From: Bacillota bacterium
GTDB taxonomy: Bacteria; Bacillota; Desulfitobacteriia; Desulfitobacteriales; JAJXUE01
DNA length: 64,000 bases
Assembly (NCBI GenBank): GCA_021783135.1
Contig: JAJXUE010000011.1
Coordinates: 1-64,000 of the forward strand
Direction of reading: 5' to 3'
Both the position numbers and the translations under genes were made by a program. Shown piece after piece: positions 15,402-29,061 of the stretch. Each line of letters begins with the position of its first letter. Within the stretch, counting starts at the first letter, position 1. Below the pieces are notes generated by a model. The model was not told the DNA's origin, made no database searches, and worked only from the letters and a program-made list of their open reading frames with translations.

Positions 15402-15431
15402 ATCTGAAGATTACTACTTTAATCTTCAGAT
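15402..15431. repeat. 12-bp perfect inverted repeat
   Basis: ATCTGAAGATTA (15402-15413) pairs perfectly with 15420-15431 around a 6-nt loop. It lies in the 339-bp gap 15303-15641, upstream of the 207-residue hypothetical. It may be an operator or a second terminator; apart from it and the terminator at 15537-15569 the gap holds nothing recognisable. Confidence 0.45.
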
Positions 15432-15536
15432 CTTCCGTAATTCGCATAGTACGTCCTCCCTGCTACGCTGCTCGCTTAATGTATATATATTCTTTATCGG
15501 GCCCAAGGGTTAACTGGGCACTATCCCATTCCCTGC

Positions 15537-15569
15537 AACAAAAAGAGAACATCCCTTACGGTGTTCTCG
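15537..15569 (-). terminator. Rho-independent terminator
   Basis: GAGAACA pairs with TGTTCTC (15546-15552 with 15563-15569). On the minus strand the stem is followed by TTTTTGTTG. It terminates the hypothetical gene that ends at 15642. Confidence 0.75.
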
Positions 15570-15641
15570 ACAATCACTGATGGGTTTTTGCATAGTGAGG
15601 TATCGCAGAATTTAACCATTATGGCAATGATAATGTGTTAA

Positions 15642-16157
15642 TCAAACCAAACTCACCGTGATGGTTCCTACTCCGGGAATAGCAATCTGATTATCCTTTG
15701 TGCAGGTAGCGCCAGTTTCATTTTTATTCACCTTTAGTTCATGTATGAATTTGTCCTGGGTGGCAAACACCTTTGCCACAACGTGAAACTTAGCCCTGGC
15801 TGCCACAATAGTTGGTGTTAACAAAAAAACGTTTATTATACTGTCTGGAGCCATATAAGTCCGATAATGACGCCCAGCAATTGAACACATTCGCCGTTCA
15901 AATAACGTAGAATGTATCCTTAAGTGCCGCACTTTGAGGGCGTGAGTGTCCTGTTCTACATACACGACCCTTAAATTTAAAATCAAATCGGATTTTAAAT
16001 TTTGACCGACTTCAGAGATACGAATATTCTTATTTTGGATATTAACTGTAAATAACTCTTTTGCCTTACTTGGCATGTTAAATTTATAATATTCTGTGGC
16101 AAATAAATCTACTTTTTCTAACAAAGAACTTACTAAAACTTGCGTTTCATCAATCAC
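15642..16157 (-). CDS. Hypothetical beta-rich protein of the surface island
   Basis: 171 residues when started at GTG 16157, chosen because GAGGAGG lies 9 nt upstream; the frame remains open further upstream but without a ribosome site. The sequence alternates short hydrophobic strands (LFTVNIQNKNIRISEVG, SDLILNLRVVYVEQD, AKFHVVAKVFATQD) and ends IPGVGTITVSLV. No family is recognised, and there is no signal peptide or membrane span. It is the leftmost gene of the 15.6-27.9 kb island, divergent from the first MSFPTIPNI gene, and could be a self-assembling coat component. Confidence 0.55.
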   Translation of the reverse strand: MIDETQVLVSSLLEKVDLFATEYYKFNMPSKAKELFTVNIQNKNIRISEVGQNLKSDLILNLRVVYVEQDTHALKVRHLRIHSTLFERRMCSIAGRHYRTYMAPDSIINVFLLTPTIVAARAKFHVVAKVFATQDKFIHELKVNKNETGATCTKDNQIAIPGVGTITVSLV

Positions 16158-16373
16158 TTTGTTGGCCCTCCTCGGGTTAGACGGATACTCATATAGGCTA
16201 TGGTGGTAAACTCTCCAATATACCCACAATTAAATAAAAAAAGGAGTTGCAATTGGCTTTTGAAGTTAAAATCCTCATTCAGATTTCATCAGTACCTAAG
16301 GGGCAAGGCACAAGCTGATTTTCTATAACATTGTCTTCTTAAAAAGTACTTGCTTGCGTAATCAATTTCAGCA

Positions 16374-16401
16374 ACACATAATTATGAGTTCACATAATAT
16401 A
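16374..16401 (+). promoter_or_regulatory. Candidate mother-cell (sigma-K/E-like) promoter
   Basis: ACACA near 16374-16378 is followed, after about 16 nt, by CATAATATA at 16393-16401, which fits CATANNNTA. It is 42 nt before the first MSFPTIPNI gene. The motif is short and AT-rich, so this is weak on its own; a similar arrangement precedes other genes of the island. Confidence 0.35.
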
Positions 16402-16442
16402 AATAGCTTAACAATAGTCATAGATGAGAGGGGTCACGGCTA

Positions 16443-16802
16443 ATGTCCTTTCCAACTATTCCAAATATCAATGCGGAAATAAACATTACTGTTGAGGAAG
16501 CCGTTAATTTGCTTTTAGCCTCGATTGCATTTGAAGAGTTAGGATTAGCTCATATTATTAATGCTGAAGCAGAAAAAATCCAATTTGTTTTAGGCACTCT
16601 TCCTAATCAATGTACAACCGCCCCAACTACTATCGAGGACCTTATGAAAATTGATGTTTCAGTAATTCAGACCTTACGAGAAGTAATTAAGCAGCAAATG
16701 CTCTTACAATTTAAACTTGAAGATGTCATCAGTATATCCACAACAACAACCTCAACCACAACTACCACCACAACAACTACTTGTTGCCATTGCTGTGGCT
16801 AA
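16443..16802 (+). CDS. MSFPTIPNI-family small protein with Thr-rich, Cys-terminated tail
   Basis: 119 residues. The conserved core (1-97) is MSFPTIPNI, then a helical stretch NLLLASIAFEELGLAHIINA, EAEKIQFVLGTLP, and a second helix TLREVIKQQMLLQFKLEDVI. From about 98 it switches to an almost pure threonine run with two serines, ending in CCHCCG. The function is not known to me. Three paralogs lie within 7 kb, interleaved with glycosyltransferases. The Thr-run is what an O-glycosylated stalk looks like, and the terminal cysteines could crosslink or bind metal. There is no signal peptide, so assembly from inside a cell (for example the mother cell onto a spore) fits better than Sec export. GAGGGG lies upstream of the ATG. 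Confidence 0.85.
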   Translation: MSFPTIPNINAEINITVEEAVNLLLASIAFEELGLAHIINAEAEKIQFVLGTLPNQCTTAPTTIEDLMKIDVSVIQTLREVIKQQMLLQFKLEDVISISTTTTSTTTTTTTTTCCHCCG

Positions 16803-16850
16803 GGTGCAGTGACATGTCTCGGCAATTAGGCTCCGTTACAAACGATAAAT

Positions 16851-16883
16851 AGAAAGACGTTGGCATTTAACCAACGTCTTTCT
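16851..16883 (+). terminator. 13-bp hairpin after the Thr-tail gene
   Basis: AGAAAGACGTTGG (16851-16863) pairs perfectly with 16871-16883 around a 7-nt loop, 49 nt after the stop. No long T-tract follows on the plus strand, so it may act in either direction between two convergent genes. Confidence 0.6.
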
Positions 16884-17032
16884 GGTACTATCCTGAAACT
16901 AGCTTCGAGTCGCTGGGGTCGAGTTTACTTTCTGCTCCGTTTCGCTGACTACATCGCCTTGCATACGTTTCGTTTCGGTTCGCTTCCTCACTTCCGTAAA
17001 CGTAGCCATAAATTGGGCGCGAGCGCTCAGTG

Positions 17033-17059
17033 GAAACCGATGCGCGCTTTTCTTGTTGC
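17033..17059 (+). repeat. 27-nt element shared with 27325-27351 (copy 1)
   Basis: It matches 27325-27351 at 25 of 27 positions, same strand, core CGATGCGCGCTTTTCTT. In the other copy this is the 3' arm of a terminator; here only about 5 bp of the opposing arm (GCGCG near 17016) remain. It lies 7 nt beyond the stop of the DUF11-type surface gene. The rest of 16884-17066 is a gene-less stretch rich in CGTTTCG-like words. Confidence 0.7.
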
Positions 17060-17066
17060 CTCGACA

Positions 17067-18569
17067 CTAACTGCCTATTACTATCCATTGGAATGAATTA
17101 CCAGGGGCTAGACTAGGCAGAGTTCCTATTAAGCCTAATACCGAATCGTTTACTACAACGCCAGACAGTGTAACATCGCCATTATTGGTTACTACGAATT
17201 TAAACTGGGGAGTAACGCCGGCAGGTAGTTCTGGTCCTGGAGGTGTGTTGGCATGCACCCAGGTAAGACCATTATCCACCGATACATATTTTATTAAATC
17301 GATAGCCGGTACCGGTGCTTCCACTCCCACCCAATATGCCGGGTTGGTAGCGGTGACCGTTTGACCAAGATAATCCCCGCTAGCAGTTGCGGTATTCACC
17401 TGTTGGCCTAAAAGCCATGGTTCGGTGATCATCCACGTAAAGGATGCTCCAGGGTCTAAACTTGGGAGTGTTCCAATTGGCCCATACACGTCGTCGGCCA
17501 CGACAACATTACTTAAGGTGACGTTACCTGTATTCGTTACTGTGAATCTAAACTGTGGGTTTGTTCCTTGAACAACATCCGGCCCTGGAGGGGTATCCGC
17601 AGGATACCAAGTAACTCCGTTATCCGGCGACACATCTTTTTGCACGTCGATGGCCGGTTGATCAACTGCCGCCGGGTTGGGGCTTACGTAGACGCCACTG
17701 GTACCTGATGTCATGCTAAATTGTGTTGTAAGGGTATACCAGCCACCAACAAAAATTCCATTGCTGAGGGGTTGAGTTGGCCCATAATAAAGCCTGGTCA
17801 CTGGATCAAATATATCTGGCGCACCCGTGGTCAACCAATACCCTGTGAAAAAGCCACCCCCGCTAAAGTCACTCCCTCCAATGATTAAACTGCCTTGTCC
17901 ATCATTGTATCTAGGACCTTGTGGATAGGGGGGTGGTGGAGTAGTTCCGCCGCCTGAAGAGTTAATATCTCCGGCAACGTTAATAAAGTTAGTAGGGGTC
18001 AATCCTCCATGGGGAACAATCGCTCCGCCACTCTGAAACTTCACTATGCCCTGATAACCATTGGAAGGATCACTGTCTTCATCCCAGCGTAGGATATACA
18101 CATCCCCAGGGTCACCTGTAATATTAATTTGACTCGAGACAGTGAAACCAGACGTAACGTTAATCACATAGACTTCGTTAATACCATTTTGGGTATTTAA
18201 TCCATCAAGGGAAGTGGAAACTACACTTTCAAAGCCCGGTGTCGGTGGAAGGGCATTGATTTGTTGTATGGCACTAATTAGATCTGCTGTCAAATTGGCA
18301 ATACGGCTTGTATCACCCGTAACACCCGATGCCTGAGTGGGGTTTTGATCAAGAATGGCTTGCCAGGCACCTTGAGTCGGCGCATTAGTATAAAGCGTTC
18401 CAGCATAGGGCACATCACCAGAGGTGCGCAAACTAGCTACCAAGCCATTAACTGCCACATCCCCAATAAAACCCTTGGTGGCTCCTTGCCAGTTAGCATC
18501 GGCACTACCGTCTGCAAATAAAAGCAAATAATCAGGTAAATTACCCAGATTTATCCCACCGATAATCAA
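17067..18569 (-). CDS. Large surface protein with anchor-like N-domain and two DUF11/DUF7507-type repeats
   Basis: 500 residues from TTG 18569, with GGGAG 9 nt upstream. Residues 1-205 resemble choice-of-anchor / ice-binding-like adhesion domains (GFIGDVAVNG, VYVINVTSGFTVSSQINITG, GDVYILRW). A Gly/Pro-rich linker follows at about 208-222. Two repeats of the DUF11 conserved-repeat type are at about 330-425 and 430-500 (SPDNGVTWYPADTPPGP; SVDNGLTWVHANTPPGP; FTVTNTGNVTLSNVVV). The second repeat stops about 40 residues short of the first. No signal peptide or wall anchor is seen. It lies 37 nt downstream of a MSFPTIPNI gene and is probably in the same operon. Likely a structural or adhesive surface protein; the precise location is unproven. 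Confidence 0.8.
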   Translation of the reverse strand: MIIGGINLGNLPDYLLLFADGSADANWQGATKGFIGDVAVNGLVASLRTSGDVPYAGTLYTNAPTQGAWQAILDQNPTQASGVTGDTSRIANLTADLISAIQQINALPPTPGFESVVSTSLDGLNTQNGINEVYVINVTSGFTVSSQINITGDPGDVYILRWDEDSDPSNGYQGIVKFQSGGAIVPHGGLTPTNFINVAGDINSSGGGTTPPPPYPQGPRYNDGQGSLIIGGSDFSGGGFFTGYWLTTGAPDIFDPVTRLYYGPTQPLSNGIFVGGWYTLTTQFSMTSGTSGVYVSPNPAAVDQPAIDVQKDVSPDNGVTWYPADTPPGPDVVQGTNPQFRFTVTNTGNVTLSNVVVADDVYGPIGTLPSLDPGASFTWMITEPWLLGQQVNTATASGDYLGQTVTATNPAYWVGVEAPVPAIDLIKYVSVDNGLTWVHANTPPGPELPAGVTPQFKFVVTNNGDVTLSGVVVNDSVLGLIGTLPSLAPGNSFQWIVIGS

Positions 18570-18606
18570 AACTTTTCACTCCCTCATCTCGAATTAAGGT
18601 TGTTGT

Positions 18607-19005
18607 CTAAACAGTAGGATAGTGGTAGTACGCTATATCTGTGTCTTGAACAATCACACCGTCAAAAGTACCCGTAGCCGTAGCCACGTTACTCATACTT
18701 GGCGTTGCAGGGGGGATTTCAAAAACATCTTCTAACTTAAATTGTAAGAGCATCTGATTCTTAAGAACTGTTCGAAGTGTTTTCCCAACGCTTCGATCAA
18801 TGGCAATGAGATCTTCAAGGGTTACCGGCTGGGGCACTTGATCCGGGAGTGTTCCAAGCACAAATTGAATCTTTTCACCTTCTGCATTTATGATATGGGA
18901 TAGTGCGAGTTCCTCCATTGCTATTGATGCAAGGAGAATGTTTGCCACGGATGTTCTGTCGAGGCTTATCTGAGGCGTAATATTAGGAATGGTTGGGAAA
19001 GACAT
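18607..19005 (-). CDS. MSFPTIPNI-family small protein (paralog 2)
   Basis: 132 residues. The core is MSFPTIPNITPQISLDR, ILLASIAMEELALSHIINA, EGEKIQFVLGTLPDQ, LRTVLKNQMLLQFKLEDV, closely matching the protein at 16443. Its tail differs: about 35 residues rich in Ala, Thr and Val, ending YYHYPTV. No signal peptide. AAAGGAGAA precedes the ATG. It is followed by the 500-residue surface protein at 37 nt, so the small protein may be its assembly partner or base. Function unknown. Confidence 0.85.
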   Translation of the reverse strand: MSFPTIPNITPQISLDRTSVANILLASIAMEELALSHIINAEGEKIQFVLGTLPDQVPQPVTLEDLIAIDRSVGKTLRTVLKNQMLLQFKLEDVFEIPPATPSMSNVATATGTFDGVIVQDTDIAYYHYPTV

Positions 19006-19056
19006 ATATCAGTTCTCCTTTCGCTTAAGATACTTCCCTTGGCACAAGTCCAATCC

Positions 19057-19084
19057 TAATATATGGTATGTACAAGTTCTTGGT
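19057..19084 (-). promoter_or_regulatory. Candidate sigma-K-like promoter of paralog 2
   Basis: On the minus strand ACC (19084-19082), 16 nt, then CATATATTA (19065-19057), matching an AC...CATANNNTA layout. It is about 50 nt upstream of the ATG at 19005. This is the best-spaced of the sporulation-like promoters seen in the island. Confidence 0.4.
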
Positions 19085-19137
19085 TTTGTCCGCCTGCGAG
19101 ATAGTGTTTTTTCGGCATATTTTCATTCCGAATAAAC

Positions 19138-19173
19138 AAAAAGGCGATTGGCTTATTAACCCATCGCCTTTTT
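19138..19173 (-). terminator. Bidirectional terminator
   Basis: AAAAAGGCGAT (19138-19148) pairs with ATCGCCTTTTT (19163-19173), with an A-tract on one side and TTTTTGTTT on the other. On the minus strand it ends the glycosyltransferase transcript whose stop is at 19264, isolating the downstream MSFPTIPNI operon. Confidence 0.8.
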
Positions 19174-19263
19174 GTTTAAAATTTAAAAAAATATTATTTA
19201 CTAGAGGTTTAAACAAGGCTTGGAGCTACAAAGCACACGGGGAGAAAAGTCTTTTACTTTTCA

Positions 19264-20547
19264 TTACGGAGTTAATAATTGGGCAAATTGATTTTGCCAA
19301 ATCCACTTAGGTGAATATTTCTGTCTAATCATAGTTTTGCTGTAAACTACTGGATTTTCGTGCATGAGATTTAGTACTTTTGACACTTGTTCTTCCAAAT
19401 AGTTTTGTTCCGAAGGATAATATGTTTCCTTACTATCAAAGCCAAAGTTCCTGGCATCCCATCGCATGAAATATGTTTGAAGCTTTGCACCTAGTTCTTC
19501 CAGAGCCGGTACCTTTTCATTTAACACAAGAAAGTTCCCTCTGCTCGCTGCTTCAAGTGCTATCAATCCGAAGGATTCGGAAAAGGACGGACACACAAAA
19601 AGGTTGGATAAGGTAAATAGGTCAAGCACACCACTTCTGGGGAAGCCATCCGTATAACCTAAATCAGAGGTAAAAACAATATCTTCATCCGCTAAATTTA
19701 AAGCGTGCCCCAGTCTTCTTATCAGCGCCTTGTAAAGTTCTGGGTTTATATCAGTTGACGGAAAATCACAGAATACTGCCTTCACACTGGACTTAGTCTT
19801 GTTTTTAATAGTTGCAGCAAAGGTAGTTACCTTGTCAAACTTTTTCCCAGGTGTTAGCCTTGCAGGATATACCATAAGTATTTCGGGTGAAAGTAAATCT
19901 GTCTCATTGGCAAGACCTTTTACCTCACCACTCAAGGGCGAAAGGATATCTAAGCTAGTATAAACTACCCGGCATCTGTCTTCCGAAATAGCATATTGTT
20001 CACCTAAGGCCAACATTTCCGCTCGGCTGGGAGCAACATAGATGGTGTTTGGCATGGAACTATGTACGGTAGAAAAAGGCCACACCGTCTTTGAGGTACT
20101 TTTAACTGGCGGTGAATATGTAAAGGCAATGAATCTAATGTTCGGCAAGGCTTCTTGCACCTTTCTAATCGCTAGATTATATCCAAGGTACCGTTCTTGT
20201 TGAAGTATGTCGTAAAGAATACAGATATCGACATCCGATAAGTTGTTTCGTATCATCTCTGAGATTATATCTACTCCCTGAAAAAACGCCCTTGGGAATT
20301 GGCCAGTTCGTTTTAAATTACCACTCCAACTAATCAAATCGTCTTTAACCGAATCACCTAATTTTACCCACTGGATTCTAGGATCCAAGAAAGTTTTGTG
20401 TTCATAGCGATTAAAGCAATCTAAATCCGCAAGTATTTTTACTGCATTGCCCGCATTAAGCAGCATGTCAAGGTGTTGAACAACTGCACTGACAATGGAA
20501 TCCGTACTGATTAACTCAGTTGCTAATGTCAATATCGCAACCCGCAA
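19264..20547 (-). CDS. GT4-like glycosyltransferase (paralog A)
   Basis: 427 residues from TTG 20547, chosen because GGAGG lies 8 nt upstream. It has a GT-B fold: N-terminal Rossmann domain (RVAILTLATELISTDSIVSAV) and a C-terminal donor-binding domain with LMVYPARLTPGKKFDKV and SFSESFGLIALEAASRGNFL (E-x7-E of the GT4 type). The family moves a sugar from a nucleotide donor to a lipid, glycan or protein. It is clearly paralogous to the enzyme at 21692-22975, which has the same length. With paralogous small surface proteins on both sides, they are the likely acceptors or scaffolds; the sugar is unknown. It is cytoplasmic; no membrane span is seen. Confidence 0.85.
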   Translation of the reverse strand: MRVAILTLATELISTDSIVSAVVQHLDMLLNAGNAVKILADLDCFNRYEHKTFLDPRIQWVKLGDSVKDDLISWSGNLKRTGQFPRAFFQGVDIISEMIRNNLSDVDICILYDILQQERYLGYNLAIRKVQEALPNIRFIAFTYSPPVKSTSKTVWPFSTVHSSMPNTIYVAPSRAEMLALGEQYAISEDRCRVVYTSLDILSPLSGEVKGLANETDLLSPEILMVYPARLTPGKKFDKVTTFAATIKNKTKSSVKAVFCDFPSTDINPELYKALIRRLGHALNLADEDIVFTSDLGYTDGFPRSGVLDLFTLSNLFVCPSFSESFGLIALEAASRGNFLVLNEKVPALEELGAKLQTYFMRWDARNFGFDSKETYYPSEQNYLEEQVSKVLNLMHENPVVYSKTMIRQKYSPKWIWQNQFAQLLTP

Positions 20548-20616
20548 CCGTATTCCTCCTACAGCCCCTATCAAAACTTCATCTTTAAACTAACAACTTT
20601 GTTGCAATAACCCTTC

Positions 20617-21003
20617 TTAGTTCAGACCTATTCTAATATGGATAACTTTGCCTAGATCCCTCAGTGCATTGTAATCTTTTAAACTTATCCATAGAGTAAT
20701 AACCTGATTAGACCCACTTCTGTTATAACCTTTCACATTAAACTTAACGACAATGAATTTATCATTTTTTTGAGGCGAAAACCTTGTTAACAAACTTATT
20801 TTTTTACGATTTATTGCCTTTATTAAACTCAAAGTTGATAAAATCGAATCCTGTTGCAATTTCAAATCAAGAACTTCTTGCTGATTCATCTTGCTTTCCT
20901 TCTCGAGTGTACAGTAAAAATTGTTGAGGGTAACTACATATGTATCTAATATTGATATTCCTTCTACAAGAACATCTTTCAGCTTTTCGAACCTACTAAC
21001 CAT
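20617..21003 (-). CDS. Hypothetical helical protein
   Basis: About 128 residues from ATG 21003, with GGGGAG 9 nt upstream; an earlier possible start lies 10 codons upstream. The N-terminal half is helical and charged (FEKLKDVLVEGISILDTYV, QQEVLDLKLQQDSILS), followed by a basic segment NRKKISLLTRFSPQKND and a beta-like end with VIHIRIGLN. Family not recognised. It sits 36 nt downstream of the divergent paralog at 21040-21402 and is presumably co-transcribed with it and the glycosyltransferase downstream. Confidence 0.55.
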   Translation of the reverse strand: MVSRFEKLKDVLVEGISILDTYVVTLNNFYCTLEKESKMNQQEVLDLKLQQDSILSTLSLIKAINRKKISLLTRFSPQKNDKFIVVKFNVKGYNRSGSNQVITLWISLKDYNALRDLGKVIHIRIGLN

Positions 21004-21039
21004 ATTGACAAACTCCCCTGGCCAACAAGCCAACCACTC

Positions 21040-21402
21040 CTAACTGCCTTGTTGTCCCATCGCCGGATACGTTGATTCATAACACTCACACTTACCGTTT
21101 TTGTCCTTAAGACGCATATCTATTTCTAGTACTGTTTCCATCTTTTTGAGTAAAAGCCACTCTTTAATAATAACTGTATCGACCATTTTGCATGAAGTCT
21201 TATTGCACTTCGCCAGTTCATTCAAAAAATTGCCACTGTCATCCTGACAGAGCTTACTCACTAGAACTTGTGTCTTTTCCGCTTCGGCATTTAGTAAGTG
21301 AGAAATGGCAATTTCCTCCAAGGCTATTGACTCCAATAAATCAATAACCGTTTCTTCCAGCGTAGGCCGGTGCTTTTCCTCAGGTATTTGCGGCATACTC
21401 AT
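21040..21402 (-). CDS. Divergent member of the MSFPTIPNI family (paralog 3)
   Basis: About 120 residues from ATG 21402; AAGGAGG lies 10 nt upstream, and an in-frame ATG three codons earlier is too close to it. The start is MSMPQIPEEKHRPTLEE. The helical core VIDLLESIALEEIAISHLLN followed by AEAEKTQVLVSKL aligns with LLASIAFEELGLAHIINAEAEKIQ of the other members, and the second helix VIIKEWLLLKKMETVLEID matches their QMLLQFKLEDV. The tail is Cys/Lys-rich (KNGKCECYES). First gene of a three-gene minus-strand unit with the 128-residue protein and a GT4 enzyme. Confidence 0.75.
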   Translation of the reverse strand: MSMPQIPEEKHRPTLEETVIDLLESIALEEIAISHLLNAEAEKTQVLVSKLCQDDSGNFLNELAKCNKTSCKMVDTVIIKEWLLLKKMETVLEIDMRLKDKNGKCECYESTYPAMGQQGS

Positions 21403-21648
21403 GCTATTCATGCCTCCTTAGTTTCAATCATGCAAACCATTTGATTCAGCAATCAATCAGCACTCCACCGTAAAATAACAAGATGGCGATTCAGAATAAA
21501 GAATTTATGTTTCACTACGGGTCCGATTATGTAACTTTTCTATTTATGATATTTATGCAATACCATACTTAGATGTGACTCTTATTTTCAAAGAGTGTGG
21601 TTAAGGAAACATACCTGAGCTAACAACACCATTTTTGCAGTGAATGCG

Positions 21649-21657
21649 CATACAATA
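21649..21657 (+). promoter_or_regulatory. Candidate sigma-E/K-like -10 element before GT4 paralog B
   Basis: CATACAATA fits both CATANNNTA and the CATACAAT form of mother-cell sigma-E, with an ACACC about 18 nt upstream. It is 35 nt before the chosen start of the glycosyltransferase. Suggestive only. Confidence 0.35.
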
Positions 21658-21691
21658 TATACCAATAATACGCCGCTATGGAGGTATCCAA

Positions 21692-22975
21692 ATGAAAGTT
21701 GCTGTTCTCACAATGTTTAATGGCCTAAGTACCACGTATTCTCTGGTAAATATTGTGGCGGAACATCTTAGAATGTTACTGGATGCAGGCATAGAAACAA
21801 GTCTTCTTGTTAGCCAAGACTGCCCGGATGATGAAAAATACGGCATATTTACGGACGAACGCTTGGAATTGGTAAAAGTTACAAATAGACTTAACGGTCA
21901 ACTAATTCATTGGCGTGACTACGCCAAACCTGATGGCAAAGTCCATGCTACTTTTTATGAGGAGGCTGAGGTCATAGCCAGCGACTTAGTAACTAAGCTT
22001 TCAGATGTAGATTTCTGTATTATGCATGATATTCACTATCAAGGCTGGCATTTAATTCACAATGTTGCCATAAGAAAGGCCCAAGAAAAGCTGCCCAATC
22101 TGAAGTTCATAGCCGTTACTCATTCAGCTCCTGTCAATAGGCCTCCTAATCCTCAATGGCCTTTTTCGGCACGCTATTCGCCGATGCCTAAAACCACCTA
22201 TGTCTATCCCACCCAGTCAGGAATTCCGGCACTCGCCAAACAATATAACGTCCCAGAAGGTAAGTGTGCTGTAATCAATAACAGTTTAGATCTAATCGCG
22301 GGTATGAGCGACGAGGTAAAATCTATTCAGAAACAGTTCGATCTACTTAGTCCTGATATATTGATTGTTTATCCTGGCAGGCTGACATCCGGTAAGAGGT
22401 TTGAAAAAGTGGCGGCCTTGGCCGGTGCTATTAGGAAAAAAACTGAGCAAACTGTAAAAGTAATTTTTTGTGACTTTCCAGCAATGGATATTAAGCCTGA
22501 CGAATACAAAAATACCATACGCGAGACCGGTTACGCCCATGGTTTGGCAGAGTCAAGCCTTGCCTTTACAAGTGACTTAGGCTATCCCACAGGCTTTCCC
22601 CGTAATAGCGTCCTGGAAATATTCACCTTGTCCAATCTATTTATCTGCCCATCTTACTCCGAATCCTTTGGCCTTACCGTACTTGAAGCTGCCAGTAGGG
22701 GTAACTTTATAATCTTAAATCAGGCAGTCCCCGCGCTAGAAGAATTAGGCAAAAGGCTAAGTTCCTATTTCATGCGCTGGGACGCCCGAAATTTTGGTTT
22801 CGATACCAAAGAAACCTATCATTCATCTGAACAGGCCTATTTAGAAGAGCATGCCTTGAAAGTAATTAATCTAATGCGTGAAAATCCAGTGCTGCATGCT
22901 AAGACAGTGACACGACAGCGCTTTAGTCCTCAATGGGTGTGGCACCATCAGCTAGAGCCATTATTCGAAAGATAA
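21692..22975 (+). CDS. GT4-like glycosyltransferase (paralog B)
   Basis: 427 residues from ATG 21692, chosen because GGAGG lies 7 nt upstream of MKVAVLTMFNG; the frame is open further upstream without a site. GT-B fold: N-terminal Rossmann domain (LVNIVAEHLRMLLDAGIETSLL) and GT4-type C-domain (LIVYPGRLTSGKRFEKV, SYSESFGLTVLEAASRGNFI). The whole length matches paralog A, including the C-terminal YFMRWDARNFGFD and KETY-SSEQ-YLEE motifs. The two face outward around paralog 3. Duplication followed by divergence suggests either two sugar steps or two acceptors. Confidence 0.88.
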   Translation: MKVAVLTMFNGLSTTYSLVNIVAEHLRMLLDAGIETSLLVSQDCPDDEKYGIFTDERLELVKVTNRLNGQLIHWRDYAKPDGKVHATFYEEAEVIASDLVTKLSDVDFCIMHDIHYQGWHLIHNVAIRKAQEKLPNLKFIAVTHSAPVNRPPNPQWPFSARYSPMPKTTYVYPTQSGIPALAKQYNVPEGKCAVINNSLDLIAGMSDEVKSIQKQFDLLSPDILIVYPGRLTSGKRFEKVAALAGAIRKKTEQTVKVIFCDFPAMDIKPDEYKNTIRETGYAHGLAESSLAFTSDLGYPTGFPRNSVLEIFTLSNLFICPSYSESFGLTVLEAASRGNFIILNQAVPALEELGKRLSSYFMRWDARNFGFDTKETYHSSEQAYLEEHALKVINLMRENPVLHAKTVTRQRFSPQWVWHHQLEPLFER

Positions 22976-23013
22976 ATCCTACATCACACATTAGGCCTAG
23001 TCAGCCAAACAGG

Positions 23014-23057
23014 AACAAGGGACCTACCCCTTCAAACGAGTAGATCCCTTGTTTTGC
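23014..23057 (+). terminator. Terminator of GT4 paralog B
   Basis: AACAAGGGA-c-CTAC pairs with GTAG-a-TCCCTTGTT (23014-23027 with 23040-23053), followed by TTTTGCTTT. It also separates this gene from the convergent paralog 4. Confidence 0.8.
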
Positions 23058-23083
23058 TTTGACCTGACGACTACGTGGTCGTA

Positions 23084-23392
23084 TTAGGGCGTATTAGGGC
23101 AACTTTCGAGAACGTCTTCCAACTTAAATTCAAGTAACATCTGGGTTTTTAAAACCGCTTGCAGGGTCCGCCTGACTTCATGGTTAATCGAAAGTAGGCC
23201 ACTGAGAGATATTCCAGGTATTGTTACACCTGGAAGAGTTCCAATTACGGCCTGAATCTTTTCAGCTTCAGCATTAATAATATGGGCTAAGCCGAGTTCT
23301 TCAAAGGCAACGGAGGCTAAAAGCAAATTGCACACTTGACTTCTGTTTAGACTGATAGATGGGGTAATATTTGGAATGGTTGGAAACGACAT
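23084..23392 (-). CDS. MSFPTIPNI-family small protein (paralog 4, tailless)
   Basis: 102 residues, essentially only the family core: MSFPTIPNITPSISLNR, NLLLASVAFEELGLAHIINA, EAEKIQAVIGTLPG, LQAVLKTQMLLEFKLEDVL, ending SCPNTP. Comparison with the tailed members defines the core domain as about 95 residues, with variable C-terminal extensions. AAAAGGAGGA precedes the ATG, and a CATATATTA box lies at 23426-23434. A 10-bp tandem duplication (CGTATTAGGG) spans the stop region. Downstream of a TPR-type glycosyltransferase on the same strand. Confidence 0.85.
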   Translation of the reverse strand: MSFPTIPNITPSISLNRSQVCNLLLASVAFEELGLAHIINAEAEKIQAVIGTLPGVTIPGISLSGLLSINHEVRRTLQAVLKTQMLLEFKLEDVLESCPNTP

Positions 23393-23444
23393 TCTTCAGT
23401 CCTCCTTTTAATGATAGCTTTAAAATAATATATGAAATAGCGTA

Positions 23445-24638
23445 TCATTTGCTACAAATTCGTTGAATTAGTTGTACAACCTCAGGCCCAAAACGTTGTT
23501 GCAAGTCGTCGCTAGCGGTGTCCGAATGCTTATTGATCAACTTGACAAGCGCTTCACTGGCCTGGTTAAAATTGTTCGCAAGTTTTAATGCCTCGAGGTA
23601 AGCCAATACGGCTTCCTTGTCTCTGGCTAATTCTTCAAGGCAAAGACCTTTATAATACCAAGCCCTAAAGCTGCCCAAGCCCCTTAGGCTCAAGTAATTA
23701 AGATTGTCTTCCCCCAATCGTATACATTCGTCAAAGGCCACTAAGGCTTCTTCAATCATTTTCTTGTAATAGAGGATAACCCCCATGTAAAAGTTCAGAT
23801 CAACATAATCCGGAAACATTTTGACTGCCGATTGTATACTCGGCCAGGCCCCTTCCCAACTTCCCGTTTCAATTAAAATCGAATACTTCAAACTATAAAG
23901 CATTGACGGCGGCGGAATGACCCCACGCTGCAAAAACTGCGTTATTGATTGGTTGAGTTCCTCAAAAGCTTGAGCAAAATTTCTCCTGCGGTAATACTCT
24001 GACGCTAAATAGTAACGCGTCCAAGGGTTGTCCCCATCCTCTTCCAATTCTTTTAATAAGAGTTTGACATTTCTCTCATACTTCTGTTTGTCCTCGATTG
24101 TTCTGTCCATATAGCCATAATGGTATATTTTTAGGTTTATAACCCCCACTCTATCCCGCGCATAGGCACTAGATAGATTAAGCCATTCATGAATCTTGTT
24201 TTCAAACCGAAAGCCCTTAGAATTGCGAAAGATTCGGGGTTGAGCAATTCGGATAACATTATCAAAGTCAACCTCATCACCATAAAAATTAATCAGTGGT
24301 ACCGAAAAGGCGTCGTATTCTTCTAAGAGCGAAGGATTATTCAGTAAATCCCTATCCTCTACGGCAACTTCCTCGTCCGCATCTAGCCATAGTATCCAAT
24401 CACCTTTGACTTTGTCTAGCCCAAAGTTACGGGCATCAGCAAAGTCATTCCTCCAGGGATAGGCCAGCACCTGGGCATTAAAAGAACGGCATATCTCTAT
24501 GGTTCGATCCGTTGAGCCCGTGTCCACAATTACAATTTCTTCCACGAGATCCTGCACGCTATCTAGGCATCGTTTAATACACTTTTCTTCATTCTTAACA
24601 ATCATGGCTAAGGAAAGTCTTTGATTCCCGATACCCAC
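23445..24638 (-). CDS. GT2-family glycosyltransferase with C-terminal TPR-like repeats
   Basis: About 397 residues; GTG 24638 lies 8 nt after GGGAGG (a GTG three codons upstream overlaps the site). The GT-A domain (about 5-225) has LAMIVKNEEKCIKRCLDS, IVDTGSTDRT, WRNDFADARNFGL and the DxD motif LWLDADEE. The C-terminal half (about 230-395) has TPR-like helices (YYLASEYYRRRNFAQAFEEL, LNFYMGVILYYKKMIEEAL). GT2 enzymes of this build, including SunS-like proteins, often glycosylate peptides or proteins, with the TPR part holding the acceptor. A protein acceptor such as the neighbouring small surface proteins is a reasonable inference. Confidence 0.87.
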   Translation of the reverse strand: MGIGNQRLSLAMIVKNEEKCIKRCLDSVQDLVEEIVIVDTGSTDRTIEICRSFNAQVLAYPWRNDFADARNFGLDKVKGDWILWLDADEEVAVEDRDLLNNPSLLEEYDAFSVPLINFYGDEVDFDNVIRIAQPRIFRNSKGFRFENKIHEWLNLSSAYARDRVGVINLKIYHYGYMDRTIEDKQKYERNVKLLLKELEEDGDNPWTRYYLASEYYRRRNFAQAFEELNQSITQFLQRGVIPPPSMLYSLKYSILIETGSWEGAWPSIQSAVKMFPDYVDLNFYMGVILYYKKMIEEALVAFDECIRLGEDNLNYLSLRGLGSFRAWYYKGLCLEELARDKEAVLAYLEALKLANNFNQASEALVKLINKHSDTASDDLQQRFGPEVVQLIQRICSK

Positions 24639-24910
24639 CAAAGGCACCTCCCGATCAAACTATGTATCCTTCATGCTGCCAAAAATCAACTTGCTCGTTC
24701 CTATGCATGATATGTGTTACAAATAAAATTCGTGTTCGTGGCTGAAAAGTTAAGGTCTTACAAACGTTTTAGTTTTCATAGAAGAGCCAATAAGCCGTTT
24801 CTTGTAGTCAACTATGCAGACAGCGGCATGAGGGGACACACACGATACAACCTTTAGCTTGCATATGATTTAGGTGTGACCTAGGCACTAGCGAATGTAA
24901 AGGAGAATAT

Positions 24911-25579
24911 ATGATAATTGGGACGATGCTAGTTCGTAACGAAGCGGACAGATGGCTAACACAGGTGCTAGAGCAAATTAACGGAGTCTGCGACAGGCTT
25001 ATTGTCTTAGACGATGCCAGTACGGACGCCACACCTGAAATTTGCGAAAAATATAGGGCTAGTGTCTTCCGATGCAGGCGGAGTTTATGGGGAGTGGATG
25101 AAGCGAAACGGCGCAAAGCCCTTTGGTCCTTAGCAAAGCCTGACCACGGTGATTGGATACTTTGCCTTGATGCAGACGAAACAGTTCCGCAGATCAACCT
25201 GCTGCCGGGATTAATTCAGCTGGCGGAACACTTGGGGATAGACGGTTTAGCCTTTAGCCTTTACGATATGTGGAGTCCGACTCACTACCGCGATGATGAA
25301 TACTGGACAGCACATAACCGTGACTGGGTCATGTGTGTTCGATACGACCAAGACCGTGACTACAAATGGCTAGCCGGTTTACACTGTGGTAGATTTCCGG
25401 TAAATTCCTGTACCCAAATTGGTAGAACCGGCCTAAAGCTTCAGCACTGGGGATGGAGTAGAGCCGAAGACAGGGAGATAAAATACAAACGCTACAAGCA
25501 GGCAGACCCTAATGGTCTCCACTTAGCACAATATGAAAGTATCTTGGACCCAAACCCTAATTTAAAGGAATTTTTATAA
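24911..25579 (+). CDS. Small GT2-type glycosyltransferase
   Basis: 222 residues, a single GT-A domain. Motifs: MIIGTMLVRNEADRWLTQVL, VLDDASTDATPEICEKY, and the metal-binding DxD in WILCLDADETVP. A Trp/Tyr-rich acceptor-side segment follows (LYDMWSPTHYRDDEYWTAHN). It lacks the C-terminal TPR part of its minus-strand neighbour. AAAGGAGAA precedes the ATG. It is 40 nt before the next glycosyltransferase on the same strand, so the two form an operon. The 272-bp gap upstream shows only a short TAGGT/ACCTA dyad near 24870. Confidence 0.83.
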   Translation: MIIGTMLVRNEADRWLTQVLEQINGVCDRLIVLDDASTDATPEICEKYRASVFRCRRSLWGVDEAKRRKALWSLAKPDHGDWILCLDADETVPQINLLPGLIQLAEHLGIDGLAFSLYDMWSPTHYRDDEYWTAHNRDWVMCVRYDQDRDYKWLAGLHCGRFPVNSCTQIGRTGLKLQHWGWSRAEDREIKYKRYKQADPNGLHLAQYESILDPNPNLKEFL

Positions 25580-25619
25580 ATTTATTTAACACAGCAGTAA
25601 ATAGTGAGGAGGATTTCGA

Positions 25620-26426
25620 ATGCAGGAACTCAAACCTAAAGTACTCTTAGGTAGCCCCATTCGTCAAAAAAACGAGATACTAAGCAAATTTCTATCGGGA
25701 CTTGAAGAATTAAACAAAGATAGTCTGCTTAACGTTGACTATTTTTTTATTGATGATAATATCGAAGAGGTATCAAGCCAGCTACTACGCCATTTTACCG
25801 AGAAAAATGCCAATACAACCCTTACACGAGTTCATACTCAAGCAACAAACCATTATTTGTGTAATGAAAACACCCACGTCTGGGAAGAGGAACTCATATG
25901 GAAGGTAGCTGATTTTAAAAATCATATGATCCAGAAGGCGACCAACGACGGTTACGATTATTTGTTCTTGGTTGATTCTGATTTAATATTGCATCCCAAA
26001 ACCCTGGCACATTTAGTAAGTCTTAATAAAGACATCGTCTCCGAGATATTTTGGACCAAGTGGGAACCAGACTTCCCGGAATTGCCGCAGGTCTGGATGT
26101 TTGACCAATATAACTTATATGAGAATTCAGGAGGCTCTGCTTTAACCCCGGCAGAGGTTATCCAAAAAGTTCAAGCCTTTATCAAACAATTAAGAGTTCC
26201 TGGGGTTTACCGGGTTGGAGGATTAGGCGCTTGTACGCTCATTAGCAAAAAAGCGCTACTGGCAGGTGCTAATTACAATAAAATTTACAATATAAGCTTT
26301 GTCGGCGAAGACAGGCATTTTTGCATCCGGGCTGTAGCACTTGGCTTCGAACTTTTTGTCGACACACATTACCCCGCATGTCATTTTTACCGACTTTCTG
26401 ACTTAGAGGTACTTAAGAGGTCTTAG
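25620..26426 (+). CDS. GT-A-fold glycosyltransferase
   Basis: 268 residues. It begins KPKVLLGSPIRQKNEILSKF; the DxD-like motif is in YLFLVDSDLILHPKTLAHL (about 120-138), and a later conserved region is GVYRVGGLGACTLISKKAL and FVGEDRHFCIRAVALGFEL, with the GED/DRHF pattern of catalytic-site loops in this fold. The arrangement recalls Anp1-like or related protein/glycan transferases. GAGGAGG lies 8 nt before the ATG. Second gene of a pair with the 222-residue GT2. Confidence 0.78.
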   Translation: MQELKPKVLLGSPIRQKNEILSKFLSGLEELNKDSLLNVDYFFIDDNIEEVSSQLLRHFTEKNANTTLTRVHTQATNHYLCNENTHVWEEELIWKVADFKNHMIQKATNDGYDYLFLVDSDLILHPKTLAHLVSLNKDIVSEIFWTKWEPDFPELPQVWMFDQYNLYENSGGSALTPAEVIQKVQAFIKQLRVPGVYRVGGLGACTLISKKALLAGANYNKIYNISFVGEDRHFCIRAVALGFELFVDTHYPACHFYRLSDLEVLKRS

Positions 26427-26652
26427 TATACTTTGTAGGTATATCTAATCTGAACCACATTTAATTCATGCTTCATGGGCTTTCTAGCTTCCTTGATAGC
26501 ATCGATAGTTCAGTCAAAATCGATGGGCAGGAATATTATAGATTTATGACTTAACGCAGGGATAAATATCCAGTTGCCTTGGTACAACTTGTTTAAGAAC
26601 GTACTAAGCACATTCAAGTCTGCATACCTGTTATTGAAAGGATGTGTAGCCA

Positions 26653-27201
26653 GTGAGTACACAGGGGTCGTTAATTGTTAAAGAACTTATTGGCAAAACC
26701 GTGCAAACTTTACAGCTAACCAGCTGTTTCGCCGCTCCATTTCCCATCAAAGAAGTATTTGAGGTAAGACACTCTATCCTTCCGGTAAAAACAGTAATCG
26801 GAAAAAAGGGAACCGCTTACTTCGGCAAGGTAAATCTTAAAGCTTACTGCATTAGTGATAACGATTTAAATCTAAATTTAGTTGAAGAGTCTATTAACTT
26901 TAGGGGTTTTGCCATTTACTCAGAATTCTCCCCACCAGAGCAACCCACTATAGACATCAAGACAACGGTTCAAGACGTCTTCGTTGAGGATCTAGATGCT
27001 CAGACAATTAAAATATTTATGATTGTGCTTGTAGACATTACTTTTACCCTTGACAAAGAATTGAACAACCCAGATATTCTTCTGCCTTCAGGCTATATGT
27101 CATTGGCGAACTCGGACCCGACTTCACATGAATTTAAGATTGAGGTCGAAAACTCCGATTCAGATCCTGAATTAACAATTCATGACTTGCAAATTGAATA
27201 G
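26653..27201 (+). CDS. Hypothetical beta-rich protein, SPOCS/coat-like
   Basis: 182 residues from GTG 26653; AAAGGATG lies upstream. After SLIVKELIGKTVQTLQLT, the middle (about 28-135) alternates strands: FEVRHSILPVKTVIGKKGTA, YFGKVNLKAYCISDN, FRGFAIYSEF, TIKIFMIVLVDITFTL. This layout recalls SPOCS (DUF3794) domains of spore-coat proteins such as SipL, but I cannot claim membership from motifs. The C-terminus is acidic (EVENSDSDPELTIHDLQ). No signal peptide. It fits a structural component of the island. The 226-bp gap before it (26427-26652) shows nothing recognisable. Confidence 0.55.
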   Translation: MSTQGSLIVKELIGKTVQTLQLTSCFAAPFPIKEVFEVRHSILPVKTVIGKKGTAYFGKVNLKAYCISDNDLNLNLVEESINFRGFAIYSEFSPPEQPTIDIKTTVQDVFVEDLDAQTIKIFMIVLVDITFTLDKELNNPDILLPSGYMSLANSDPTSHEFKIEVENSDSDPELTIHDLQIE

Positions 27202-27220
27202 CTAGCTAGCGGTCTGTATT

Positions 27221-27344
27221 GACAGGACTTGGCAAACAAGTTCTGTCTCGTACTATCAGACAATATAACCTCGCCAACCAAGCTAGGGCAGCGGAAGATA
27301 GTACGGGGGAAAGCGCGCGTAGAGGAAATCGATGCGCGCTTTTC
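27221..27344 (+). ncRNA. Structured three-hairpin region ending in a terminator
   Basis: There are three adjacent stems: GACAGGACTTG (27221-27231) with 27237-27247 (11 bp, one G-U); CGTACTATC (27249-27257) with GATAGTACG (27297-27305), enclosing 39 nt; and GAAAGCGCGC (27309-27318) with 27334-27343, followed by TTTTCTT. It could be a 3' UTR structure with a terminator, a small RNA, or a leader of the next gene. No known riboswitch consensus was matched. The third hairpin is the confident terminator part. Confidence 0.5.
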
Positions 27345-27351
27345 TTATTGC
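27325..27351 (+). repeat. 27-nt element shared with 17033-17059 (copy 2)
   Basis: It matches 17033-17059 at 25 of 27 positions. Here it forms the 3' arm and T-tract of an intact terminator hairpin (27309-27344). The two copies lie 10.3 kb apart, both at the ends of surface-island genes. Confidence 0.7.
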
Positions 27352-27504
27352 GCAATTAAGGATCCGCTACGGGTACAAACCTTAGTACGTAAGAATATAT
27401 TATAACCAAAGGGAACTTGCTAAGTGTACACCAAGTCCAAAAGTGATAACATGGCTAACACGAATAAGACGACATGACGTTAGCCTATGAAAGGAGTATG
27501 TACG

Positions 27505-27849
27505 ATGTCAGAAATTGAGGTTCAGGCCTGCATTTCACATGATCCGGACCAACCGCATCTGTGCCCACCTTGCACCAAGCAGGACTTTAAGCTATCCGAT
27601 GATGTAAGTGTTAAGGTTAACAAAGGGCAGGAGGTGACACAGGACATTATCCTTCATCCCAACCTGTTGAAAGATTTTGGGACCGTCAGTGGTTGTGTTA
27701 AAGATCCATGTGGACACCCAGTTGCCTATGCGCTAGTTAAGGTTTTCGATCACAAACACCGTCCATTCGCCCATGTTTTCACTAACCACGAGGGACAATT
27801 TCTTATTTGTTTACCGCCCGGCCACTATTTTTTAAAGGCAGTTCGATAA
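27505..27849 (+). CDS. Small carboxypeptidase-regulatory-like (Ig-fold) protein
   Basis: 114 residues from ATG 27505, chosen because AAAGGAG lies 8 nt upstream; an in-frame ATG six codons earlier has no site. The C-terminal 65 residues form a carboxypeptidase-regulatory-like beta-sandwich: GTVSGCVKDPCGHPVAYALV, KVFDHKHRPFAHVFTNHEGQ, FLICLPPGHYFLKAV. The N-terminal part has HDPDQPHLCPPCTKQDFKL, with a CPPC pair that could bind metal. No signal peptide. Proteins of this size and fold occur as surface or coat structural elements; that role is inferred from the neighbours. Confidence 0.7.
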   Translation: MSEIEVQACISHDPDQPHLCPPCTKQDFKLSDDVSVKVNKGQEVTQDIILHPNLLKDFGTVSGCVKDPCGHPVAYALVKVFDHKHRPFAHVFTNHEGQFLICLPPGHYFLKAVR

Positions 27850-27915
27850 TAGCCTACAGGTTGATGCCTTAAAGGCAGGACATTGTTAAAAACCGAGTTA
27901 GTATCAACTAGAAAA

Positions 27916-27954
27916 ATAGGCTACGGGGTCACCAAAAGGTGGTTCGTAGCCTAT
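27916..27954 (+). terminator. Hairpin after the carboxypeptidase-like gene
   Basis: ATAGGCTACG (27916-27925) pairs with CGTAGCCTAT (27945-27954), with inner ACC/GGT pairing and CATTTG following. It closes the surface island before the convergent deacetylase. Confidence 0.65.
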
Positions 27955-28062
27955 CATTTGATGTTACATTTAATTTTTAAGTGGGATTCATGTCTGCACA
28001 GTTTAACCCTTGAAATTACCTAAAATTTAATCTAAATCCATTTTTATTACCATAGATATGCG

Positions 28063-29061
28063 TCACGCCCCGCCTTTAATTGACGGTTGGCTTGTAGTTG
28101 CACCTGGCTTTTGCCCGCTATTTTGCGGCAGCATGGTCACCGGAAAATGTCCCGGATGCGCGATGGCCACGGGCAAAGACGCCACACCGAGATGATCTGT
28201 TGCCAGGATGGTCATTAACTTTTGTACCTCAGCATCAACACCTGGTACCCAGTGTAAGAGAATAATTGCCCCCGGTTGCAGCTGCTTATCGTTATAGGTT
28301 TTGAGCACACCATTACTCATCACGGCACTCCACATTATGACATGTTTGATGCCCGCTTGATATACTACCTGGCAAACCGTATGGTTGTAATCGCCATACG
28401 GAGGTCGAAACAAGACTGGCCGACTCGCCAAAGCGGTAAAATACGCCATAGGTTGCTTGATTTGCTGCTCCATCCCCGTTAAGGAACTTTGCGTCAGATT
28501 AGGGTGGGAAAAGGTGTGGTTTTCCACATCCCCACCCGCGCGGACAAACTCGCGCCAATAAGCCGGGTGCTCTGCTGCCGCCTGTTCGATGAGAAAGGCT
28601 GTTATCGGCAAATGGTAATGCTGCATGATTTGCAAAACAGCAGAATTAGGATACCAGCCATCATCAATAGTGATAAAAACAGCCCTTTCGGTTGGCGGCA
28701 AAGCCCAGATTACATTTGCGGCCGGGGCTTGTCCCAATGGCGAGACGTTAAGCGAAGAGGCAGTGGACTTATCATTTTGACCATTATTTGCATTTCCTTC
28801 AGTTTCGCCTGCTAACGCTGTTGGCCCTGTTGATACTGTTGATACTGTTGAAGCCGTTGCCACAGTGGATGACGTACTCTCTGCTGCATTTGCCGCACCA
28901 GGCAAACCTAATTTCTGCGCTTTTTTAGGACTTTTACCTACAGCCGAAGACGCCTTAAATGCTTGAAAACTGAAAATATTAGCAGGTAATGACAATCCAA
29001 TCAATAAAATAGCAACCACTACAAAAATTATTATAGCAATCAGATACTTCTTGTTGCGCAT
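28063..29061 (-). CDS. Membrane-anchored polysaccharide deacetylase (NodB fold)
   Basis: 332 residues. An N-terminal anchor (about 5-27, IAIIIFVVVAILLIGLSL) is followed by a Ser/Thr/Ala-rich linker to about 120. The NodB domain (about 125-310) has the first-motif TIDDGWYPNS (catalytic and metal Asp), HTFSHPNL (metal His pair), RPPYGDYN, and a late IILLHWVPG. The enzyme removes acetyl groups from wall or capsular amino sugars outside the membrane. The linker is very rich in small residues (STVATASTVSTVSTGPT). It starts at ATG 29061 after GAGGTAAT. Not part of the nif operon; a terminator and an operator-like palindrome lie between them. Confidence 0.88.
   Translation of the reverse strand: MRNKKYLIAIIIFVVVAILLIGLSLPANIFSFQAFKASSAVGKSPKKAQKLGLPGAANAAESTSSTVATASTVSTVSTGPTALAGETEGNANNGQNDKSTASSLNVSPLGQAPAANVIWALPPTERAVFITIDDGWYPNSAVLQIMQHYHLPITAFLIEQAAAEHPAYWREFVRAGGDVENHTFSHPNLTQSSLTGMEQQIKQPMAYFTALASRPVLFRPPYGDYNHTVCQVVYQAGIKHVIMWSAVMSNGVLKTYNDKQLQPGAIILLHWVPGVDAEVQKLMTILATDHLGVASLPVAIAHPGHFPVTMLPQNSGQKPGATTSQPSIKGGA

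Follow-up and report, generated by a model that had tools for sequence, protein, structure and literature searches.

A candidate glycosylated spore-appendage cluster: predicted A-ENA-type proteins encoded among glycosyltransferases in a Bacillota genome

A gene cluster of approximately 12 kb in a Bacillota bacterium (GenBank assembly GCA_021783135.1, contig JAJXUE010000011.1, positions 1–64,000; this whole stretch of 64,000 nucleotides is referred to as the window) encodes four small paralogs, A1–A4, which are identified by sequence and modelling as predicted subunits of the A-ENA type of endospore appendage, and five glycosyltransferases (GTs) interspersed with them. With a probability of roughly 0.7, the product of the cluster is a glycosylated layer of endospore appendages, formed by the mechanism proposed below. 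The observations behind this reading are the homology and predicted fold of the core, its modular tails, sigma-K-like promoters, the co-localisation of core and GT genes and the pairing of one GT family with Thr/Ser-run tails. The genes are as follows.

15642..16229, minus strand: small protein without known family; homolog in the syntenic locus L005 (36%)
16443..16802, plus strand: A1, predicted A-ENA-type core with Thr-run tail and CCHCCG
17067..18569, minus strand: DUF11/DUF7507 surface protein, 37 nt after A2
18607..19005, minus strand: A2, predicted A-ENA-type core with short Ala/Thr tail
19264..20547, minus strand: GT4a, EX7E motif ESFGLIALE, 427 aa from a TTG start, ORF to 20574
20617..21033, minus strand: small protein after A3; homolog in L005 only (31%)
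21040..21411, minus strand: A3, divergent predicted A-ENA-type core with Cys/Lys tail
21692..22975, plus strand: GT4b, EX7E motif ESFGLTVLE, 427 aa, ORF from 21644
23084..23392, minus strand: A4, tailless predicted A-ENA-type core, directly downstream of GT2-TPR
23445..24647, minus strand: GT2-TPR, GT2 with DAD motif and TPR, upstream of A4
24911..25579, plus strand: small GT2, DAD motif, distant GmaR similarity
25620..26426, plus strand: Anp1/GT-A-like GT, DSD motif; Anp1 below the Pfam cut-off
26653..27201, plus strand: small protein without known family; homolog in L005 (32%)
27487..27849, plus strand: CarboxypepD_reg-domain protein; homolog in L005 (54%)

Four paralogs and the spore-silk fibre

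The four small paralogs reported in a first-pass annotation of this DNA were all found as open reading frames at their positions, and they are the only copies of the core in the genome (genome search, E 4e-62 to 5e-7, far beyond chance). Three begin with MSFPTIPNI, as had been noted, and the fourth, A3, with MNSMSMPQIPE. A3 is 30–33% identical to the other paralogs, which are mutually about 58–63% identical, and falls in a separate clade of old origin, which has 30 rows and a support of 98. The helical core, originally put at some 95 residues, spans approximately 97: its AF2 model consists of two helices, at residues 17–50 and 63–97, with a mean pLDDT of 86. The tails differ exactly as first described (Thr-run, Ala/Thr, Cys/Lys, none). 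That of A2 resembles the linker preceding the DUF11 part in fused homologs, and the A1 ortholog in L005, a locus syntenic with the window cluster, retains a Thr-rich tail. Inspection by eye of A1–A4 disclosed neither a hydrophobic N-terminal signal, in keeping with the earlier remark that signal peptides are lacking, nor GXY collagen repeats. Pfam and NCBIfam searches returned only sub-threshold noise for A1–A4, leaving the core without a family, and likewise for the small proteins at 15642 and 26653, previously called beta-rich; the DUF11-type surface protein was recognised as DUF11/DUF7507.

The identity of the core is indicated by PDB entry 9IHH, "Ex vivo spore-silk A-ENA fibers". The core profile matches this entry at E 1e-27, and single sequences do so at E 6e-20 (A4) and E 9e-9 (A3); with the AF2 model as Foldseek query, 9IHH is the only match at E <= 0.001 (probability 1.00, TM 0.70/0.76). 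The likeness comprises a homologous core over the whole length, the two-helix fold, the family N-terminus (MPTIP...) and the spore origin. The difference is that 9IHH is a 101-residue protein, whereas here there are four paralogs with tails, five GTs and a DUF11 protein. It is on these profile and Foldseek matches that A1–A4 are taken, by sequence and model, as predicted A-ENA-type subunits, and fibre formation by A1–A4 in this organism appears probable from their sequences. The initial guess of a polymer on the spore surface was thus right, the core having a homolog whose solved structure is that of a spore-derived fibre; the label "undescribed" was not, the fibre type having already been deposited as A-ENA (released 2026-03-04). 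The collection of papers searched contained none on "spore-silk", 9IHH or A-ENA.

Distribution, tails and promoters of the core family

A scan of approximately 85,000 prokaryote species genomes, which gave at least 435 candidate core matches, places all core homologs in the Bacillota, mostly in genera with known spore-formers, and so bears out the suspected tie to such organisms. Sampled genomes of the same family and order are devoid of the core, and the system is therefore patchy; a plasmid collection yielded one Bacillus velezensis replicon with two core copies. The source genome encodes SpoIVA, as do 28 of 30 core-positive genomes against 85% overall in a phylum sample. Because so large a share of the sample is already positive, this co-occurrence is uninformative on spore restriction and was rejected as proof of it.

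The core forms an N-terminal module of proteins from many Bacilli and Clostridia, where collagen-like, Thr/Ser-run, beta-propeller or DUF11 tails follow it. Thr-rich tails are common, collagen GXY repeats are found in 46 of 231 core ORFs elsewhere, and in three loci (L011, L019 and L022) the core, Thr-run and DUF11 parts form a single polypeptide. Most long-tailed core homologs resemble display proteins.

The sigma-K consensus lies upstream of 35 of 169 core genes, where 2.2 are expected and 100 shuffles gave at most 6, and upstream of 6 of 200 other ORFs (1.5 expected). Within the cluster the strict sigma-K-like pattern is present before A1, at −69/−67 with CATAATATA, and before A2, and is absent before A3 and A4. 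Neither a sigma-E-like motif before core genes (7 vs 3.9) nor the sigma-K motif before GT genes is clearly enriched; a generic sigma-70/terminator scan was uninformative (40 vs 29.5 and 7 vs 11.8), with one strong hairpin after A1.

Glycosyltransferases and the cores beside them

GT4a and GT4b are 51% identical and lie in ORFs of 436 and 443 aa. Their likely starts, TTG at 20547 and ATG at 21692, are each preceded by a good ribosome-binding site and give both proteins the equal length, 427 aa, that had been remarked on. The three GT-A enzymes, one with a TPR tail, were also confirmed by domains at 23445, 24911 and 25620, the last a weak Anp1/GT2 match. GT2-TPR matches PF00535 and TPR families and its DAD motif is of the DXD type. 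Its catalytic domain aligns with GmaR (E 8e-40) and SunS (E 8e-24), protein/peptide GTs that are, as judged from sequence, its closest solved relatives, although it falls below the SunS equivalog cut-off (TIGR04195, 107.8 bits vs 350).

Recurrent GT neighbours of the core, anticipated at the outset, are found in other genomes: homologs of the window GTs occur in 54 of 94 distinct core loci, the other 40 having none of these families within the flanks fetched. A BLAST comparison covering homologs of the window GTs only detected them in 8/20 core regions and 0/20 random regions of core-positive genomes. The commonest neighbour is the GT2 family with TPR members (45 loci); homologs of the Anp1/GT-A-like enzyme occur in 12 of 77 first-survey core loci. 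GT4b is present in 4 of 300 sampled genomes, core-positive ones only, and in every case a core gene lies no more than ~4 kb away.

The GT4 and GT2-TPR families differ in the cores that they adjoin. GT4 is next to a Thr/Ser-run core in 11 of 15 cases and GT2-TPR in 0 of 38 (p 2e-8; three duplicate locus pairs were removed before these counts and that of 54/94, with no further phylogeny correction, and earlier survey counts include them). It is GT4, not GT2-TPR, that tracks Thr/Ser-run tails. Among culturable relatives, Heliobacterium mobile and Rossellomorea aquimaris have such core–GT pairs as well. The partner of GT2-TPR is mostly a tailless core, and its acceptor could therefore be either that core or some protein elsewhere. 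Hence the early view of the TPR-fused GT2 as a protein modifier stands as regards its nearest relatives, GmaR and SunS, but not as regards the Thr-tailed paralogs as its partners. The co-occurrence of Thr-rich tails with any GT locus-wide is weak (p = 0.057) and is not relied on.

A proposed glycosylated appendage layer and its alternatives

In the proposed mechanism, sigma-K would drive expression of A1–A4 in the mother cell; from the cytoplasm of that cell the proteins would assemble onto the forespore, to be released together with the spore, and because of this route they would need no signal peptide. On the surface of the spore, the two-helix cores would polymerise with one another into fibres, with tailless A4 probably the bulk subunit. 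A1 and A2 would use their tails to display parts that are Thr-rich or adhesive, and A3, divergent and Cys-tailed, would cap or anchor the fibre. The DUF11 protein, covalently fused to the core in other genera, would be an outward part. O-linked sugars would be added to Thr/Ser of the fibre proteins by GT4a and GT4b together with the GT2-TPR/GT-A enzymes, GT4 acting on Thr/Ser-run tails and GT2-TPR, in the manner of SgtA or GmaR, on proteins docked by its own TPR. The acceptor, the sugar, its placement on Thr-rich tails and the division of labour are what we infer here.

The cores might instead form A-ENA fibres whose proteins stay unmodified, with the GTs serving the synthesis of a distinct polysaccharide on the spore surface, comparable to the crust glycans of Bacillus subtilis. 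NDP-sugar epimerase-like genes, present in 13 core loci, would suit such a pathway, as would sugar acetyltransferase/DegT-like genes (5–6 loci), the mostly tailless neighbours of GT2-TPR and a possible role of the Anp1-like and small GT2 enzymes in glycan extension. Yet among the ORFs of the 12-kb cluster (14679–29061) none was recognised as a polymerase, a flippase or an initiating carrier transferase, and the kinship of GT2-TPR with GmaR and SunS and the specific tracking of Thr/Ser-run tails by GT4b both point to proteins; we regard this explanation as unlikely. Quite unlikely, too, is that the core serves here only as a docking domain that directs tails to a coat or exosporium already in place, as the display-like character of most long-tailed homologs might imply: 9IHH represents one fibre from one species, an organism other than the source of this genome, but that fibre is made of the core itself (29 chains), and tailless A4, nothing but core, is conserved and close to it (44% identity when the structures are aligned). 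Surface proteins of vegetative cells commonly contain DUF11/DUF7507 repeats, and Thr-rich tails are found there as well; both features would fit a vegetative surface glycoprotein system unrelated to spores. This is highly improbable given the homology to ex vivo spore fibres and the sigma-K-like promoters; moreover, neither a signal peptide nor a sortase or S-layer anchor was seen.

The proposed glycosylated appendage layer would connect protein glycosylation with a spore fibre whose structure was solved only very recently. What is new here is the modular core with varied tails, its sigma-K-like promoters, the GT association, the GT4/Thr-run pairing, the likeness of GT2-TPR to protein/peptide GTs and the core/Thr-run/DUF11 fusions. 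The occurrence of core genes beside GTs across spore-formers suggests that spores build fibres from one common block and sugar-coat its variable tails. The core as a modular assembly domain across Bacilli and Clostridia, with collagen-like, mucin-like or adhesive tails, would account for many spore proteins that are collagen-like or labelled "hypothetical"; a GT4 family associated with Thr/Ser-run tails is now named, and what glycans do in the adhesion, hydration and dispersal of spores becomes testable in culturable Paenibacillus, Brevibacillus, Rossellomorea and Heliobacterium. More tentatively, and with somewhat less than an even chance, A-ENA cores may be a platform that spores use generally for surface display, with a tail code: the previously undescribed GT4 family would be a dedicated O-glycosyltransferase for Thr/Ser-run (mucin-like) tails and GT2-TPR would serve tailless or other cores, so that mucin-like coats on a self-assembling fibre would surround the spores of Bacilli and Clostridia.

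F-ENA and S/L-ENA (Ena1/Ena3) are likewise spore fibres of Bacillota but consist of other subunit families (DUF4183 for F-ENA), and A1–A4 gave no such Pfam match even at E 1. A preprint on F-ENA (PMC11952670) predicts glycosylation and reports that a putative GT gene lies close to F-BclA. In Clostridioides difficile, SgtA, a GT-A + TPR enzyme encoded beside the gene of the spore-surface protein BclA3, adds O-GlcNAc to Thr of BclA3 peptides (PMC7157674). GT2-TPR is likened to SgtA by this layout, not by sequence; BclA3 is collagen-like, whereas the window is without collagen repeats and GT2-TPR has a tailless partner. Many core relatives do share with BclA-type exosporium glycoproteins the GXT collagen repeats and C-terminal beta-rich parts, the N-terminal module here being instead the A-ENA core, and in these repeats Thr occupies 80% of the Y positions.

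Four paralogs and their gene cluster

The first-pass annotation had described four small paralogous proteins interleaved with five glycosyltransferases, and this was right: four copies, two GT4 enzymes, two GT2 enzymes and one Anp1-like GT-A protein are confirmed. The paralogs are built on a common helical core of ~97 residues:

A1, 16443-16802, + strand: core, Thr-run tail ending CCHCCG
A2, 18607-19005, - strand: core, short Ala/Thr tail
A3, 21040-21411, - strand: core, Cys/Lys tail
A4, 23084-23392, - strand: core, no tail

Mutual identity is ~60% among A1, A2 and A4 and ~30% between A3 and the other three. Across the 2.71 Mb genome the core occurs in exactly these four copies, all on the window contig. 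Amid or beside them lie GT4a (19264..20547, -), GT4b (21692..22975, +), a GT2 with TPR repeats (GT2-TPR; 23445..24647, -), a second GT2 (24911..25579, +), the Anp1-like GT-A (25620..26426, +) and a DUF11/DUF7507 protein (17067..18569, -); the small cluster proteins have no family assignment in Pfam or NCBIfam. GT4a and GT4b are 51% identical. Their ORFs encode 436 and 443 aa; from TTG 20547 and ATG 21692, both of which follow a good ribosome-binding site, each yields 427 aa, the length of many relatives. On inspection the catalytic signatures are intact: EX7E in both GT4 enzymes, DAD in both GT2 enzymes and DSD in the Anp1-like protein. Directly after A1 lies a strong 14-bp inverted repeat (16851-16883), terminator-like on the minus strand and the best of its kind within the cluster.

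Identity and distribution of the core

No Pfam or NCBIfam model fits A1-A4. A profile of the four proteins matches PDB 9IHH, 'Ex vivo spore-silk A-ENA fibers' (E 1e-27), as do A4 alone (E 6e-20) and the divergent A3 (E 9e-9). The AlphaFold2 model of A4 (pLDDT 86; helices at 17-50 and 63-97) has 9IHH as its sole PDB match with E < 0.001 (probability 1.00, TM 0.70/0.76, identity 44%). Since profile, single sequence and predicted fold all match this entry, the four proteins are homologs of an endospore-appendage fibre subunit, and we put the probability that they are A-ENA-type spore subunits at about 0.93. The earlier proposal of a candidate undescribed surface-glycoprotein system holds in outline and not in every detail. 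The fibre type is already known. The entry was released on 2026-03-04; no publication on 9IHH or the A-ENA fibre was found in the literature searched, so that the PDB record is the source of what is known of A-ENA.

A scan of ~85,000 species genomes gave at least 435 matches to the core; all 77 loci kept are from Bacillota, the genera including Paenibacillus, Brevibacillus, Lysinibacillus, Rossellomorea, Thermoactinomyces, Alicyclobacillus, Heliobacterium, Syntrophomonas, Oscillibacter and Desulfosporosinus. An even sample of the phylum contains the core in 30 of 300 genomes, and its absence from sampled genomes of the window organism's own family and order makes the distribution patchy. SpoIVA accompanies the core in 28 of these 30 genomes vs 85% of the whole sample, a background at which co-occurrence does not discriminate. 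In the window genome SpoIVA is present, split across two contig ends (C28:76431-76796 and C52:3-365); the second piece begins at the contig start, and the split looks like an assembly gap, not a broken gene. A tree of 220 cores, which has few columns and leaves many forks unresolved, places A3 in a separate, old and well-supported clade of 30 rows (support 98); it groups A4 with Desulfosporosinus, Heliobacterium and Syntrophomonas in a clade of 11 rows (support 99). Loci L103-L108 (genomes G254, G140, G164, G188, G275 and G296), all of one genus (g122), carry one weaker homolog per genome (E ~1e-14), aligning only from model position 17 onward and possibly a further subfamily.

The core is a module joined to varied tails. 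Of 231 ORFs carrying it, 70 are practically tailless; the tail is collagen-like (GXY, with Thr at 80% of Y positions) in 46 and has Thr/Ser runs in about 30. Beta-propeller-like and further kinds also occur, and the longest tail reaches 1,780 residues. Thr makes up 21% of tails vs 6% of cores. At three loci (L011, L019, L022) one polypeptide unites core, long Thr-run and a homolog of the window DUF11 protein (68-72% identical), and the window keeps A2 and the DUF11 gene as two ORFs in the same direction with 37 nt between them; fusion and adjacency together tie the DUF11 protein to the core.

A strict sigma-K pattern (AC-N14-17-CATANNNTA, within 150 nt upstream) precedes 35 of 169 core genes (expected 2.2; maximum 6 in 100 dinucleotide shuffles) and 6 of 200 other ORFs of the same loci (expected 1.5). 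In the window it stands before A1 and A2, A4 having the -10 element alone. These sigma-K-like motifs are consistent with expression in the mother cell and with A1-A4 showing no signal peptide by eye.

Glycosyltransferases beside the core

With duplicates removed, homologs of the window glycosyltransferases occur in 54 of 94 core loci; with duplicates included, the commonest neighbour is the GT2 superfamily (45 loci, 102 ORFs), followed by GT4b (17 loci). Such homologs lie in 8/20 core regions vs 0/20 random regions of core-positive genomes. GT4b is found at E < 1e-30 in 4 of the 300 genomes, all core-positive, within ~4 kb of a core gene; the top five hits of GT2-TPR beyond the window (38-71% identity) adjoin core genes as well, and a Desulfosporosinus locus (L005) retains nearly the whole cluster.

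Among solved structures, GT2-TPR is closest to GmaR (8e-40), the related GT2 enzyme 7MSK and SunS. GmaR acts on protein and SunS on a peptide. In layout GT2-TPR also resembles Clostridioides difficile SgtA (358 aa), in which an N-terminal GT-A domain precedes C-terminal TPRs; encoded beside bclA3, SgtA modifies Thr residues in BclA3 peptides with O-GlcNAc (PMC7157674). GT4b has weak PDB similarity only, to 3C48/3C4Q. The neighbouring enzymes probably modify the A1-A4 proteins.

The two enzyme types differ in their partners. The core nearest GT4 bears a Thr/Ser-run tail in 11/15 cases, the pair usually convergent, vs 0/38 for GT2-TPR (Fisher p 2e-8, which overstates independence because the sequences are related); the core nearest GT2-TPR is mostly tailless, often immediately downstream in the same direction. 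Likewise, GT4 lies within 1.5 kb of 14/24 Thr/Ser-run cores vs 0/49 collagen-tailed ones, and the pairs occur in both Bacilli and Clostridia. Within the window the DUF11-A2 pair intervenes between A1 and GT4a; in L005 their orthologs are adjacent and convergent, the A1 ortholog likewise with a Thr-rich tail. Specificity of GT4 for Thr/Ser-run tails is a tentative reading, somewhat short of even odds. In the literature searched, no description was found of the modular tails, the glycosyltransferase association or the GT4/Thr-run pairing, the one exception being an F-ENA preprint in which a nearby glycosyltransferase gene leads to the prediction that a collagen-like tip protein is glycosylated (PMC11952670).

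We infer a scheme in which A1-A4 would be synthesized in the mother cell under sigma-K; in the cytosol GT4 would glycosylate Thr/Ser tails and GT2-TPR docked substrates, the core would drive polymerisation on the forespore surface, and mother-cell lysis would expose sugar-coated fibres.

Among the core loci (L052, L057 and others), genes named by eye as NDP-sugar epimerase-like (13 loci) and YheC/D-like ATP-grasp (7 loci) are possible sugar-supply and spore-surface partners. The window CarboxypepD_reg protein (27487-27849; 120 aa) is possibly shortened relative to its 195-aa counterpart in the syntenic L005. The AnfO and nitrogenase-like genes immediately downstream (29337-34406) are probably unrelated to the cluster.
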